The translations under genes and the position numbers were made by a program. Below are positions 3,448 through 42,557 of a stretch of 64,000 bases of DNA, piece after piece. The first letter of the stretch is position 1, and every line of letters starts with the position of its first letter. The notes beneath the pieces are model-generated. The model saw only the letters and a list, made by a program, of their open reading frames with translations. It was not told where the DNA came from and made no database searches. Source of the stretch: Terriglobales bacterium (GTDB lineage Bacteria; Acidobacteriota; Terriglobia; Terriglobales; Acidobacteriaceae); NCBI GenBank assembly GCA_025980765.1, contig JAICXB010000008.1, positions 24,627-88,626 of the forward strand, read 5' to 3'.

Positions 3448-4322
3448 ATCTGCAACGCCCATTCCGCCGCAAGGATGATCCCAAGCAGCCGCATCGAATG
3501 CGTCGCGGCATGTATATCCTGCCGTCACTCTTTACCGCCGGCAATATTGCCGCGGGTTATTACGCGCTCTCGCAAACCATCCAGGGCAGCGCCGGCGCCT
3601 TCTGGCATTTTGATAACGCTGCAAAGGCCATCGGCTTCGCCGTTGCATTCGACGGACTTGACGGCCGCATCGCGCGCATGACCAACACCACCAGCGATTT
3701 TGGACGCGAGTTGGACTCCCTTGCCGACGTAATCGCATTTGGCGTCGCTCCGGCCCTGCTGGCGTGGATGTGGGGGTGTCATATGCTCCCGGAGCTGTGG
3801 AATCCAGATCTGCGCACGAAGCTCATTCAGCTCGGCGCGATTGCGACCTTCATCTTTCTCATCGCGGGCGCCAGCCGTCTTGCGCGCTTCAATATCAGCA
3901 AGAACCCGCAACCGAAAAATCCTGGGCGGCCGGACCGCAAGTATTTCGTCGGCATGCCAATTCCAGCGGGCGCAGCCATGATCGCGGCCACCGTTCACTT
4001 CGGCGATGGCTCACCGCTCGACAAATGGTGGCAGACGGTGCTCTGGATGGCTTTCGTAGTGCTGATTGGTTATTTGATGGTCAGCACCTGGCGTTTTTGG
4101 AGTCCGAAAGGCATTGACCTGCGGGCGCGCGCGCCCTTCTACCTGATGATCCTCATCTGCGGCATCATTGCGCTGGTGTGGTTCTTCTCCGAGTATGTGC
4201 TGTTTGCGCTCGCGCTGCTGTATCTTGTCTCCGGAGTCCTGGCGCGCTTCGCGTACTCGTTCCGGCGGCGGCCGCCTTCCTCTCCCCAGCCTGAACCGCA
4301 GCCGCGGGTGGACATGGCATGA
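3444..4322 (+). CDS. pssA: CDP-diacylglycerol--serine O-phosphatidyltransferase
   Basis: CDP-alcohol phosphatidyltransferase motif region [27 protein letters not shown]; coupled to psd. Confidence 0.92.
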
Positions 4323-5377
4323 AACGCACGATCGGCGGAAATGGCTTTCGCGTAGCGATTGTGGGCGCGGCCACGCTCAAAGGGCGCGAGCTCAAGGATG
4401 TCCTCGACGAGATGAATTTTCCCGTGGTGGACGTGAAGCTGCTCGATGACGACGAATCGCTGGGCCAGGTCGAGAGCGTCGGCGAGGAAGCGACCTTCAT
4501 TCAGCCGACAGATCCTGAGCACTTCCGCAATGTGGACTTCGCGTTCTTCACCTCCGACGCAGCCTTTACTAAACGACATTGGCGCAGCGCGCTGGAGTCC
4601 AGCAGCACCGTCGTGGATCTGTCCTATGCGCTCGATCAGCAACCCGACGTGAGCATTCGCTCCCCCTGGATCGAAAAGGAACTGGAACGAGAATCCGGCC
4701 AGCGCCCGGAGCGCGAAGACCTGACCACCACGGCCGTGGTCATCGCCCATCCCGCAGCAACGATTCTTGCGCTGCTGCTGCTCCGTGCGCGCAATGCCGG
4801 CGCAATTCGCACGGCGGCGGCTACGGTCTTTGAGCCGGTTTCGGAACAAGGCAAGCGCGGCATGGACGAGTTGCATCAGCAAACCGTAAATCTGCTGTCG
4901 TTTCATTCGTTGCCGAAAGAGGTCTTCGACGAGCAGGTTGCCTTCAACATGCTGGGCCGCTTCGGCGAGGGCTCTTCGATTTCCTTGAAAGCAGTAGAAG
5001 ACCGCGTAGCCGCACACTTCGAGAAGATCAGCGAGGGACGTCTGCCGGTGCCTTCGGTGATGCTGGTGCAGGCTCCGACCTTCCACGCGCATGTCTTTTC
5101 CATCTACATTCAGTTTGAGCGCGAACTCCCGATATTGGAACTGGCGAGATCGCTGGCAGGAGAGCACGTAAGCTTGACCAGTCCGGGCGAGGATGGTCCG
5201 AGCAACGTGATCGCCGCCGGACAAGCCAACGTGCTGCTTGCGGTGCGACCGGACTCGCGCAATCCCAACAGCTTTTGGCTGTGGGCCGCGTCAGACAACC
5301 TGAAGATCGCCGCCATCTCCGCCGTCGAGTGCGCAGCCACACTGAGCGCCATGCGGCCCATGGGGAAGGTGCAGTAA
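4319..5377 (+). CDS. aspartate-semialdehyde dehydrogenase-like protein (catalytic Cys apparently absent)
   Basis: RVAIVGAATLKGRELKDVLDEMNFPVVDVKLLDDDESLG... Asd fold; HPAAT at the position usually NPNC. Confidence 0.75.
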   Translation: MKRTIGGNGFRVAIVGAATLKGRELKDVLDEMNFPVVDVKLLDDDESLGQVESVGEEATFIQPTDPEHFRNVDFAFFTSDAAFTKRHWRSALESSSTVVDLSYALDQQPDVSIRSPWIEKELERESGQRPEREDLTTTAVVIAHPAATILALLLLRARNAGAIRTAAATVFEPVSEQGKRGMDELHQQTVNLLSFHSLPKEVFDEQVAFNMLGRFGEGSSISLKAVEDRVAAHFEKISEGRLPVPSVMLVQAPTFHAHVFSIYIQFERELPILELARSLAGEHVSLTSPGEDGPSNVIAAGQANVLLAVRPDSRNPNSFWLWAASDNLKIAAISAVECAATLSAMRPMGKVQ

Positions 5378-5381
5378 GGGC

Positions 5382-5602
5382 AGCGATAAGCGAAAAGCGA
5401 TAATCGATAAGCGATAAGCGATAAGCGAAAAGCGAAAATACAAAATCAGCAGCAAAATCTCACACGGATCGCACGGATGTTACGGATCGCACGGGTACAC
5501 CACATCATGAGCTATAGCTTGATCCGTGAAATCCGTTCCATCCCTGTTATCCGCGTGAGATTTTGGTTTTGCTTATTGCTTATTGCTTATTGCTTGTCGC
5601 TT
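5382..5602. repeat. Nested inverted repeat: outer 7-bp periodic arms (AGCGATA / TGCTTAT), inner 9-bp periodic arms (CACGGATCG / GATCCGTGA)
   Basis: Outer 5382-5437 pairs with 5570-5602; inner 5453-5496 pairs with 5520-5564. Confidence 0.9.
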
Positions 5603-6082
5603 GGCGTTGGATGCGGTTATCACACCTCCAGCCACGCGCAAGTAAACCTGCCGCAGGGGATCAACACGGTTGCGATTCCCATTTTTGTGAACAAGACGCA
5701 GAGCTATCGCGTCGAGCAGGTGCTGACCCAGGCGGTAGTGCGCGAGTTTACCAGCCGCAGCGCCTACAAGGTCGTCAACAACGACGACGGCACCTCCGAC
5801 GCTGTGTTGAAAGGCACCGTCGTTTCCACGCAGCTTTCTCCTCTGACCTACGACTCGCAGACCGGACGCGCTTCGAGCGCGATTGTGCAGATCGTGGTCG
5901 ATGTAAAGGTGCTTGACCGGCATGGTAAGACGCTGTTCGATAATCCCAACTACAACTTTCGCGGCCAATACCAGGTGAGTCGCGATGTCTCCACGTTCTT
6001 CGACGAGAGCCCGCTCGCGGTCGATCGCCTCGCGCGCGATTTCGCGCGCAGCCTGGTTGCCGATGTGCTGGAGGGCTTTTAG
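5477..6082 (+). CDS. lptE: LPS-assembly lipoprotein LptE-like
   Basis: Lipoprotein signal (...LLLIAYCLSLGVGC), GYHTSSHAQVNLPQGINTVAIPIFVNKTQSYRVEQVLTQAVVREF; upstream of holA; start codon uncertain. Confidence 0.78.
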   Translation: MLRIARVHHIMSYSLIREIRSIPVIRVRFWFCLLLIAYCLSLGVGCGYHTSSHAQVNLPQGINTVAIPIFVNKTQSYRVEQVLTQAVVREFTSRSAYKVVNNDDGTSDAVLKGTVVSTQLSPLTYDSQTGRASSAIVQIVVDVKVLDRHGKTLFDNPNYNFRGQYQVSRDVSTFFDESPLAVDRLARDFARSLVADVLEGF

Positions 6083-7212
6083 TGCCGGGGCGAAGTTTCG
6101 CGGCGACCGAACGGTTCGTCTCCGAGATTTCGGCGCGCAAGCTGAAACCCGCATACGTGCTGGTCGGTGATGAAGTGTTCTTTCGCGACCGTTGCCGGGC
6201 GGCGCTGTTGCAGCATCTGGTCACGCCGGAGCTGCGCGACTTCAGCCTGCACGATCTCGATCTGGCAGACACGCCGGTTGCCGAGGTGCTCGACCTGGCG
6301 CGCACTCCATCGCTGATGTCGCCGTTTCAGGTCTTCTTCATTCGCGGCGTAAAGGCGCTGTATGGACGCGGGTCGCACGCGGAAGAATTCGCTGCAATCG
6401 AGGCCTATTCTCGCAATCCCAATCCCGATGCGGTACTCATCTTCGTCGCCGACCACATCAGCATTCCCGCCGACGCGCGCCGCATGGAGATGCAGGACAA
6501 AGAGCGTTACGAACGCATCCGCGAGACCCTCGGCGAGTTTTGCGCGGTCATCGAACTGGCGCGAGTAGAGGAAAGCGATGGCATCCGCTGGGTGGTCGAA
6601 CACGCCACCAAAGAAGCGGTGAAGGTGGATGCCGACGCAGCGCGCGAACTCGTGGATGCACTCGGCGCGGACATGACGCTCATCGCCAACGAGCTCGAGA
6701 AGCTCATCCTCTATGTCGGTCAGAAAAAACGAATCACGATCGGCGACGTCGAGACCATGGTGCTCGCCGCCAAGCAGCGCTCGCTGTATGAACTCACCGA
6801 CGCGATCTCCGCCAAAGATCGCGTGCGCGCGCTCGCCGTGCTGGACGCGCTCCTGTCCAGCGAAGAGGGAGAAGAGGCTGCCATTGGACACATCTACATG
6901 CTGGCCCGCACCTTCCGCCAGATGCTGGTGATCCTGGAAAAAAATGTGCGCGATTCGCGCGCCATCTGGCAGGCGCTGTGGCAAGGCTTCCGCGTGCCGC
7001 CGTTTGCCGCGGAAGACATTATTCGCCAGGCCCGCCGCTACAAATCGCGCCGCGAACTCACCCGTGCCCTCCGCCTGCTCGCCCGCGCCGACCTCGCCCT
7101 GCGCTCTAACCCGCCAAGCAAACGCCTGGTGCTGGAAAAGCTGGTGATCGATCTCTGCGCTGAGTCAACCAACCCGCCGCTGCATTCGATGCAGGAAGAG
7201 TTGGTGTTGTAA
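6082..7212 (+). CDS. holA: DNA polymerase III subunit delta
   Basis: AYVLVGDEVFFRDRCRAALL...; ELEKLILYVGQKKRITIGDVETMV; conserved lptE-holA order; GTG start. Confidence 0.9.
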   Translation: MPGRSFAATERFVSEISARKLKPAYVLVGDEVFFRDRCRAALLQHLVTPELRDFSLHDLDLADTPVAEVLDLARTPSLMSPFQVFFIRGVKALYGRGSHAEEFAAIEAYSRNPNPDAVLIFVADHISIPADARRMEMQDKERYERIRETLGEFCAVIELARVEESDGIRWVVEHATKEAVKVDADAARELVDALGADMTLIANELEKLILYVGQKKRITIGDVETMVLAAKQRSLYELTDAISAKDRVRALAVLDALLSSEEGEEAAIGHIYMLARTFRQMLVILEKNVRDSRAIWQALWQGFRVPPFAAEDIIRQARRYKSRRELTRALRLLARADLALRSNPPSKRLVLEKLVIDLCAESTNPPLHSMQEELVL

Positions 7213-8283: not shown

Positions 8284-9138
8284 TCAGGCGGTCAAGCGCG
8301 TAGTTTTTTTTTTGACGCGAGAGGATGGAGTGGATCTCTCAGAAGCCGCAACCGCTGCCGCGGTTGGTACTGACTTCTTTCGCCCAGCCGCTACTGCGGT
8401 TGGTACTGACTTGCGAGCTCCAGCCTGATGCGGTAAGCGGTCGTGTTTCGCTACCGATTCGGCTAGCCAGGAGTTCTTTCCCGTGACTTTTCCCGAAGCG
8501 GGACGATTGCTTTGCCACTCCGCCGCGCCCTCATCCCCGGCGATTTCGTCCAAAGACCGCTTGGACAGCACTGAATAATCGTATTCGTCGATATCGTAGC
8601 CGGCCTGGACATCGTCATCGCGCTTCTTGATCAGCAGCCACTCGGTGCCTTTCGACCCAGGACGCCGCGAGCGCATCTTGGCCAGCACAAAGTCTCCACG
8701 CAACTTCGCGCCGTGAAGACGAAACTTTAAATCGCCTTTGGCGAGCATGGCGGTTGCTGCTTTTTCCTTGTCGGCGCGGCTCTTGTGATCGGAGTAGTCT
8801 TCCTGCAGCGGCTCCCATGTGCCGGTGTCCCACACCATGACCGTGCCCGCGCCGTAGTTGTCGGGAGGAATGATCCCCTCAAAATGAAAATACGACACCG
8901 GATGGTCTTCTACCTGCATGGCCAGGCGCTTGTCAGCGGGATCCAGTGAAGGCCCCTTGGGCACTGCCCAGGACTTGAGCACACCCTCCATCTCCAGGCG
9001 GAAGTCGTAATGCAGCCGGGTCGCGCGGTGCTTCTGCACCACGAACCGGAATCCCTTTTTGGGATCGAGCTTGGGCGGCGGCTCCGGCGTGCGGTCAAAG
9101 CTGCGTTTGCGTTTGTATTCCTCGAGGGCCATGGGCAA
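8284..9138 (-). CDS. ligD: LigD 3'-phosphoesterase domain; probably the 5' half of a frame-broken ligD
   Basis: [76 protein letters not shown]. Confidence 0.88.
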
Positions 9139-9805: not shown

Positions 9806-9890
9806 GAATCGGGTGATCGGGCCATCGGCTCATCGGGCGAAGTTAAATCACCCGATGACCCGATGACCCGATGACCCGATGACCCGATTA
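9806..9890. repeat. Inverted repeat, 8-bp periodic arms (ATCGGGTG / CCCGATGA x5)
   Basis: aatcgggtgatcgggccatcggctcatcgggcga...tcacccgatgacccgatgacccgatgacccgatgacccgatt. Confidence 0.92.
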
Positions 9891-37164: not shown

Positions 37165-37356
37165 TTAGCTGCTGGCTACTAGCTGCTGGCTGAAGCTTGT
37201 GTTGTGGGCTCGCAAGCACCTTGCTCAGGCGACTCTTGTGGGAGTTGACACTGTGACTTTCACACTTGCTTCAGCGATTGAAGTGCCGCCATGTCGCCAA
37301 GACTGCAAAAGCTTTTCGCTAGCGGCTAGCAGCTAGCAGCCAGCAGCCAGCAGCTA
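37165..37356. repeat. Inverted repeat between trpE and trpG, 7-bp periodic arms (TAGCTGC-TGGCTAC / CTAGCAG-CCAGCAG)
   Basis: Left 37165-37196, right 37318-37356; right arm ends 2 nt before trpG ATG. Confidence 0.9.
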
Positions 37357-38093: not shown

Positions 38094-39713
38094 TCAGACT
38101 TCATCCCGCAGTTTCCTCCTCAGAATCTTGCCTGACGGATTACGCGGAATGGCCTGCACGAACCTGATTTCACGTGGCTGCTTGTAGCGGGTCAAGCGCT
38201 CGCCGACGTAATTACAGAGCTCGTCGGCCAATCGTGGGTTGCCGGTATGGTTGTCGCGAAGCACCACGAAAGCACAGGGGAGTTCACCCACATCCGCGTC
38301 CCGCTTCCCCACCAGTCCACAATCGCGCACCATCGGATGCTCCAAAAGCACGGCCTCTACCTCTGCCGGAGCAATCGGAAAGCCCTTGTACTTGATCATC
38401 TCCTTCACGCGATCGACGATGTGGTAAAAGCCGTCTGCATCCACCGTCGCGATATCGCCGGACCAATACCAGCCGTCGCGCAAAACCGACGCTGTGGCCT
38501 CGGGAGCGTTCCAATAGCCCAGCATCATTTGTGGGCCGCGCATGACTAGCTCGCCCGCATTCGCAGACTCGCCGCCTTCGAGACGGCAGTCCGTCAACGC
38601 GACTGCCTGCCCAATCGAATCAGGACGATACAGCTCGCGCTCGATGTATCCCAAATGAGTCACCGGCGAGGCTTCAGTCATGCCATATCCCTGGCGTAAT
38701 CGAATGCCGGTCAGCTCAGTAAATCGCCGCGCCAGCTCTGGAGCCAATGGAGCGGCGCCGGATTTGGCATAGCGAATGTGGTGTTCGTGCGGGAACTGTC
38801 CTTGCTCTGCCGCTTGCGATAAGCAGTTCACCAGCGGCGGCACCAAAGGCATGAATGTCGCGCCTTCTTCTCGAATCAGCGAGCACAACCGCTCCTGGTC
38901 GAAGCGCGGCATTAGCACGAGAGTTGCACCCGCGGCGAAGACTGGATTCAGAACCACGTTCAATCCGTAGATGTGATACAGCGGCAAACAGCAGAGAGCG
39001 ACGTCGTCTTGCGTATAGGTTGACTCCTCTCCTGGTGAGAGGAATTGATACACGTTTGTCACCAGGTTCGAGTGCGACAACATCACGCCTTTGGGCAAGC
39101 CGGTGGTGCCGCTGGAATAAGGCAGCGCCGCTAAAGTGTGATGCGGATCATCGTCCTGCGCTCGCCGAGCCTGCAATCCAGGGCCACGTAACATCTGCGC
39201 GAAATCTTCCGCACCGAGCGCAGCCTGACGAATAGTAAAAACGTTTCGCAGCTTCGGCAGGCCGGAGAGACTCATGTCTTTGATCAACGTGCCGTCGGTC
39301 ACCAGCGCAGCCGCCCCGGAATTCCCGAGTTGGTAATGGACTTCACGCTCGCGATAAGAAGGATTGAGGAGCGTGGGGATGCATCTCGCGAGGGTCGCCG
39401 CGTGATAAGCGACGGCAAATTCCCAGGAGTTAAATAAGAAAATCCCAATCACCTCTCCGGGTTCGAACTTGCTGCTCAGCCCGGCCGCAAGCCGCTCAAC
39501 CAGGTCTCCATATTCGGCATAGGTGATGCGCTGCGAAGGAACTTTCGAAGCATCGACAATCGCTAACTTCTCGCCAAAGCGGCGGCAAGCCCCAAGCACT
39601 ACATCATGAACGAACAATCCATCCGGATCGCGGTACAGAGCCCGACGCGCGGGAGGGCGAAGGATTGGGTGACTTCGCGGTTGGGTGATTTCGTGATTTG
39701 GATTTTCAATCAC
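38094..39713 (-). CDS. AMP-dependent acyl/aryl-CoA ligase (4-coumarate:CoA ligase-like)
   Basis: ALPYSSGTTGLPKGVMLSHSNLV, RQGYGMTEASP, GWYWSGDIATVDADGFYHIVDRVKEMIKYKGFPIAPAEVEAVL; N-terminus uncertain. Confidence 0.92.
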   Translation of the reverse strand: MIENPNHEITQPRSHPILRPPARRALYRDPDGLFVHDVVLGACRRFGEKLAIVDASKVPSQRITYAEYGDLVERLAAGLSSKFEPGEVIGIFLFNSWEFAVAYHAATLARCIPTLLNPSYREREVHYQLGNSGAAALVTDGTLIKDMSLSGLPKLRNVFTIRQAALGAEDFAQMLRGPGLQARRAQDDDPHHTLAALPYSSGTTGLPKGVMLSHSNLVTNVYQFLSPGEESTYTQDDVALCCLPLYHIYGLNVVLNPVFAAGATLVLMPRFDQERLCSLIREEGATFMPLVPPLVNCLSQAAEQGQFPHEHHIRYAKSGAAPLAPELARRFTELTGIRLRQGYGMTEASPVTHLGYIERELYRPDSIGQAVALTDCRLEGGESANAGELVMRGPQMMLGYWNAPEATASVLRDGWYWSGDIATVDADGFYHIVDRVKEMIKYKGFPIAPAEVEAVLLEHPMVRDCGLVGKRDADVGELPCAFVVLRDNHTGNPRLADELCNYVGERLTRYKQPREIRFVQAIPRNPSGKILRRKLRDEV

Positions 39714-39744
39714 GGAATCATGAAATCACAAAATCACGAAATCT
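39657..39744. repeat. Inverted repeat, 8-bp periodic arms (GTGATTTC / AAATCACG)
   Basis: gattgggtgacttcgcggttgggtgatttcgtgatttggattttcaatcacggaatcatgaaatcacaaaatcacgaaat. Confidence 0.9.
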
Positions 39745-42414: not shown

Positions 42415-42557
42415 CATCACGGGGCACGGGGCAGGAGGGAATTCTTAATTTTGAATGTTGAGTTTTGAATTTTGAATGAACACCGCTCCCGGCTGACACC
42501 TACATTCAACAATTCAAAACTCAGAATTCACAATTCCTGCGTGTCTTCGTGGTTAAA
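42415..42557. repeat. Nested inverted repeat: outer CACGG(G)GCACGGGG / TGTCTTCGTGG, inner 7-bp periodic (AATTTTG-AATGTTG / ATTCAAC-AATTCAA)
   Basis: Inner 42440-42479 and 42503-42539. Confidence 0.85.

Follow-up and report, generated by a model that had tools for sequence, protein, structure and literature searches.

An intergenic repeat element has very probably displaced the ancestral translation start and signal peptide of lptE in a soil Terriglobales bacterium (Acidobacteriota), and now supplies both. The gene lies in assembly GCA_025980765.1 (a 3.5-Mb MAG, 84% complete; G000 hereafter), in a 64,000-nucleotide stretch of contig JAICXB010000008.1 that was analysed as a whole (the window). 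An asd-like gene is followed there by a spacer holding the element, by lptE and by holA (Table 1), which is the gene neighbourhood of Terriglobia. The first-pass annotation had proposed that a spacer repeat was co-opted as a secretion signal of an LptE-like protein. This proposal was found to be supported, and to be more general than first stated, since the repeat unit is genus-wide, the start codon too appears to be displaced, and the phenomenon recurs at other genes.

That lptE is instead decayed or misassembled, and its read-through of the repeat meaningless, is extremely unlikely. The genome is a MAG and repeats are prone to assembly error, but the LptE open reading frame (open from 5477) is intact and matches PF04390 with an E-value of 9.6e-15 (55.7 bits, against a curated cut-off of 23). 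Moreover, the mature protein bears the mark of purifying selection in comparisons with genus mates (dN/dS 0.10-0.15), the asd-lptE-holA order is kept, and the same phenomenon is seen at other genes in independent assemblies. The upstream asd-like protein scores under all NCBIfam Asd cut-offs and carries the segment AHPAATI at what we take to be the position of the catalytic Cys; a Usg-like homologue without catalytic function is one possibility. Elsewhere in the window, a LigD-like minus-strand frame contains a 36-bp direct repeat (8352-8425) that encodes an SVPTA...AAGR motif.

The spacer upstream of lptE is a nested inverted repeat, in which outer arms of 7-bp units enclose inner arms of 9-bp units and a loop. 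Its arms pair over 5416-5494 and 5524-5602, which bears out the earlier assignment of the right arm to a nested palindrome. Tandem Repeats Finder reported 7.7 copies of AGCGATA at 5382-5435 in the left arm, and 3.9 copies of TTGCTTA at 100% identity at 5569-5595 in the right arm, with imperfect units onward to 5603. The 9-mer of the right inner arm, ATCCGTGNN, recurs throughout the sampled G000 genome. The RNA of the element region has a predicted folding energy of -110 kcal/mol (z = -11.4 against shuffled sequences). Searches for promoter-like sites in the element and for terminator-like sites on the plus strand were negative. Direct reading of 5378-5610 revealed neither the GTAG/CGTC tags of REPs (RAYT-mobilised palindromes of 20-40 bp) nor their complements; Y1_Tnp transposase genes, of the REP-associated type, are present in G000. 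The copies of a MITE share a full-length sequence bounded by terminal inverted repeats. No such common sequence was found among the elements built from this unit (consensus TYGCYTA), whose arms have only the degenerate heptad in common and whose loops range from 15 to 444 nt.

Table 1. Features of the asd-lptE-holA region (positions in the window)
Feature	Position	Strand	Remarks
asd-like semialdehyde dehydrogenase gene	4319..5377	+	PF01118 and PF02774 matches
Left outer heptad arm, (AGCGATA/AGCGAAA)n	5382..5437	-	Tandem Repeats Finder and direct repeat; stops when read inward
Left inner arm, 9-bp units CACGGATNN	5461..5494	no strand	Inverted repeat
Loop, 29 nt	5495..5523		Contains ATG 5507, one candidate lptE start
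Right inner arm, 9-bp units ATCCGTGNN	5522..5557	+	In-frame I-R-x tripeptides (IREIRSIPVIRV)
Signal-peptide codons with GTG 5555 as start	5555..5611	+	MRFWFCLLLIAYCLSLGVG, 19 aa
Right outer heptad arm, TTGCTTA	5569..5603	+	Codes for hydrophobic core
Predicted lipidated Cys codon	5612..5614	+	Invariant (C20) in aligned LptE relatives
Mature LptE coding region and stop codon	5612..6082	+	PF04390; single copy in genome
holA (DNA polymerase III delta)	6082..7212	+	TIGR01128, E 1.6e-59; 3' neighbour of lptE

The arm that the first-pass annotation placed at 5566-5625 is indeed translated in frame just before the LptE Cys. Read in the LptE frame (F-C-L-L-L-I-A-Y-C-L-S-L-G-V-G-C-GYHTSS), the right heptad arm gives the hydrophobic core, FCLLLIAYCLSL, which is followed by GVG and then by the Cys. 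The Cys was correctly located in the earlier reading VGC·GYHTSS, but the division was misplaced, as cleavage by signal peptidase II is expected on the N-terminal side of the Cys (LGVG·CGYHTSS). Position -3 of the lipobox is Gly, as opposed to the usual Leu.

Signal peptides were judged by hydropathy, charge, and a PROSITE-type lipobox pattern. Start codons in the LptE frame are ATG 5477, ATG 5507, TTG 5519, GTG 5555, TTG 5576, and TTG 5594. From any start 5' of the array, the array becomes the hydrophobic core. A start at GTG 5555 would give a signal with a single Arg and a length near the 16-20 aa often found among relatives, which fits the PROSITE lipobox pattern and reaches a best 12-residue mean hydropathy of 2.58. 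If ATG 5507, near the apical loop, is used, the inner 9-bp arm adds an I-R-x n-region with a net charge of +3; the right inner arm would likewise form a positively charged n-region from ATG 5477. Starts within the array leave at most 13 residues with zero positive charge. A start after the repeat, which had been named as the observation that would count against co-option, is excluded by the sequence: TTG 5594, close to where the perfect array ends, would leave only the 7-residue remnant M-S-L-G-V-G-C. On these grounds, every start codon that could supply an LptE signal peptide is located within the element. Inspection by eye revealed no Shine-Dalgarno-like sequence before any candidate start, and a hairpin of this stability in the mRNA would hinder translation initiation of lptE.

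Comparison with relatives (Acidobacteriota, mostly Terriglobia, and mostly MAGs) indicated how the gene is usually arranged. An upstream ORF could be recognised in 74 relatives, and in 57 of them its stop codon overlaps a possible lptE start (ATGA or GTGA); where start and stop overlap, the signal peptide is often 16-20 aa long. In G000, 234 nt, filled by the element, separate the upstream stop codon from the LptE Cys. These comparisons support an ancestral state in which the lptE start overlapped the upstream stop codon, a coupling that the element would have broken in G000. Genus mates of G000 are G001-G005, and lptE in three of them (G001, G003, and G005) has an ordinary signal peptide. A conserved non-repeat signal in close orthologs had been named as evidence against co-option; non-repeat signals are literally present there, but they differ among themselves, which points to replacement rather than refutation. 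Other short arrays are found at the asd-lptE junction (GTCGAAT/ATTCGTC in G006, CTGGCTA in G003, and GCTAAGT in G023), and in the G006 gene a different heptad array forms the n-region only. Among 76 Acidobacteriota LptE loci, G000 is the only one in which an array provides the hydrophobic core.

The TYGCYTA unit is an intergenic repeat of the whole G000 genome and of the whole genus, and did not originate within lptE. Arms of at least three units were counted 25 times in 462 kb sampled from G000, whereas eight permuted control units gave 0-1, so that the arrays are not due to chance. Sites with two units number 136 in the G000 genome, compared with 2 for the reversed pattern. Three-unit arrays are present in all six genus members, and occur patchily in the family (10 of 150 sampled genomes). 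Within genus g2, such arrays are absent from G006 and number 18 in G108, which suggests that they are rapidly gained, lost or transferred. Further array families with 7-, 8-, and 9-bp units exist in G000 (237 short arrays in 622 kb; for example ACCCGATC, AAGCAAT, AAATCACG, and AAATCCGTG), and arrays of this kind lie in the window at 2261-2336, 9850-9888, 37318-37356, 39708-39743, and 42439-42477. A given intergenic junction can carry different units by species, for example ACTGANA heptads in G002, TCAATGNN octads in G008, and TYGCYTA in G000, G001, and G003-G005, as if the junction attracts or needs a short-repeat element while the unit gets replaced.

This distribution bears on the idea that the lptE heptads arose locally, by slippage within an existing hydrophobic signal, independently of the intergenic element. 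Hydrophobic runs can be built by tandem duplication, and 7-bp repeats have been tied to polymerase slippage (Mrazek 2007, as cited in PMC4679880). Such an origin is, however, very unlikely, given that TYGCYTA is present in every genus mate and at more than 100 sites in G000, and that a complementary left arm lies 130-190 bp upstream of the right heptad arm. The second locus described below argues against it as well.

Two properties of the unit appear to make it suited to co-option. The first is its composition. TTGCTTA encodes the cyclic heptapeptide LLIAYCL in each of the three frames, in agreement with the first-pass claim of hydrophobicity in all of them, and ranks 21 in hydrophobicity among 1608 stop-free heptad circles; its complement has TAA in every frame. 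The second is polarity. The order on the plus strand was TARGCRA, then TYGCYTA in all 65 nearby opposite-arm pairs (52/52, and 13/13 in further family genomes). With this fixed polarity, the three frames that lead out of an element are almost always hydrophobic and free of stops, while inward reading meets stops: the 134 arms with four or more units offer 402 frames in each direction, of which 376 were open outward and 388 contained a stop inward. A gene that starts beside an element would therefore meet a hydrophobic stretch in any frame.

It is also possible, although unlikely, that the array's main role is that of a regulatory spacer (a terminator, insulator, translational control or phase-variation switch), with its coding role a by-product and with heptad copy number shifting the frame to turn lptE on and off. 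Most arms are untranslated spacers immediately upstream of gene starts and the hairpin is very stable, both in favour of this reading. A 7-bp unit within a reading frame is also inherently frame-shifting: gain or loss of a single heptad would put the upstream lptE starts out of frame, with only TTG starts available in the other frames, so that the array may have a switching role. On the other hand, lptE is present as a single copy in G000, so that an off state would be costly, LptE being required for LPS export in the best-studied bacteria. No terminator-like site is seen on the plus strand, and a regulatory function would in any case be compatible with the coding role. Translational control has been proposed for TAACTGA heptamers adjoining start codons (MacGregor 2015, PMC4679880).

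Co-option of the array as a signal peptide is seen at other genes. Altogether, 188 + 46 arms were examined, with the surrounding genes called by a simple codon-score script, and cleavage sites at the other genes were read from the sequence (in lipoproteins the dot after Cys marks the lipobox, and cleavage falls before it). The second case is an fn3-like lipoprotein on contig C26 of G000, MSLDADRSSSRLSPVAYCLSLIACYLLLIAGCLSLAGC·GTPGAPQP, in which heptads fill the stretch before the Cys; its Pfam match to fn3 is sub-threshold only. The orthologs in G001, G004, and G005 have signals of the form MR(A/T)TSAK...SGC·GTPG, and that in G003 reads MRIYLAIWCGVASLLCCAC·GTPG. In G001 and G003-G005, a TARGCRA/TYGCYTA element, or its left arm alone, is located upstream of the gene, with both flanking genes conserved; in G001, 21 nt lie between the end of the arm and the ATG. 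The element thus lies outside the gene at this orthologous locus, beside an intact ordinary signal, which argues further against local slippage. The locus presents the element both with and without signal replacement, where we infer the direction of change from the majority state.

The third case is an exported protein with the motif NYEIQVYGS, for which no Pfam family was found. Its signals are heptad-encoded in G003 (...LRHTLIANCLLLIAYCWLPTLAHA·QGNYEIQV) and in G001 (...FRLLPIAYCLLLAQSAHA·QGNYEIQV). In G004, the corresponding stretch, ...LALLLFVYCLLTARSVCA·QGNYEIQV, is encoded by TTGCTCT TTGTCTA TTGTCTG, and is apparently a decayed heptad array. More distant relatives have unrelated signals. 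A partial case is provided by a lipoprotein of G119 that starts MRPAYRSALIAGSLALMVCLGLIGC, with heptads in the first half. Signal co-option is uncommon, with three clear cases and one partial case among about 230 arms. The LptE arm stands at the 88th hydropathy percentile among arms, and that of the fn3-like lipoprotein at the 94th, as expected if only good arms are retained. Several other in-frame arms (L061, L062, L113, L248, and others) were rejected as candidates, as an ATG after the arm begins a protein with its own N-terminus.

TYGCYTA, with its many intergenic sites, fits the heptanucleotide intergenic tandem repeats (LSSR/STRR type). Similar heptamers are TAACTGA of Beggiatoaceae and Cyanobacteria (PMC4679880), and GGGAATC of Xanthomonas and GGGGA(T/C)T of Nostoc, for which inverted pairs were described (PMC4692102). 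They share with TYGCYTA the 7-bp tandem unit, many intergenic sets, a frequent position directly before starts, and, for some, inverted pairing; TAACTGA near start codons has stops in all forward frames and leaves the reverse strand open (PMC4679880). The G000 repeat differs in its unit, in that all paired arms are inverted with one polarity, and in its nesting around 9-bp arms. Use of heptamers as signal peptides is not described in the consulted passages of PMC4679880 and PMC4692102.

The closest comparisons at the protein level come from other palindromic repeats. The YPAL/RU-2 element was proposed as the source of a signal peptide in Yersinia YPO1552 (Delihas 2007, as reviewed in PMC2229807). 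As in lptE, a small palindromic repeat is in frame and forms part of the predicted signal peptide of an exported protein. YPO1552, however, involves a 168-bp MITE-like sequence and a putative new protein. In lptE it is a 7-bp tandem array, variable in length, that takes the place of the signal on a conserved envelope protein, and the state without co-option can be seen in orthologs. By the test of an in-frame repeat, as applied to YPO1552, LptE and two further genes would have repeat-derived signal peptides. Rickettsia palindromic elements also lie in frame within conserved protein genes, but they are tolerated inside proteins (reviewed in PMC2229807), whereas the lptE repeat takes over a required targeting function. 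LptE itself is typical of its family in its above-cut-off match, lipobox Cys, and gene neighbourhood; what sets it apart is the origin of its start and signal in an intergenic element, in place of a start that overlaps the asd stop codon. A MITE-derived signal in Yersinia and heptamer repeats at gene starts are known already; within the open-access literature, what is new here is a tandem array replacing the signal of a conserved envelope protein, the recurrence of such replacement, and the intermediate and apparently decayed states.

Taken together, the preferred reading is that an element with 7-bp outer and 9-bp inner arms came to occupy the junction of the asd-like gene and lptE, and that lptE translation would now start inside it, at GTG 5555, ATG 5507 or ATG 5477. 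The right heptad arm would work as an ordinary Sec/lipoprotein signal, with signal peptidase II predicted to cleave before the Cys and the lipidated LptE sent to the outer membrane. Co-option would be easy because the unit is very hydrophobic and encodes one peptide in all frames, and because arm polarity is fixed; these properties allow an array to provide a workable signal core with hardly any constraint on its spacing from a gene start. As a tentative generalization, frame-independent hydrophobic heptad arrays may be a standing genomic source of signal peptides, able to take over targeting when they abut the starts of exported proteins; the DNA would then diverge from the repeat without loss of hydrophobicity, and frameshifts caused by changes in copy number could also turn such genes on or off.

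Signal peptides turn over rapidly, and their raw material is seldom visible. One genus here displays the source, an intermediate in which an intact signal has the element next to it, a replaced signal, and one that seems to be decaying, so that the origin of a targeting signal is open to direct study. The general rule, that a 7-bp repeat confers frame-independent hydrophobicity, is testable in other heptad-rich genomes, and offers a simple route by which new export signals can arise.
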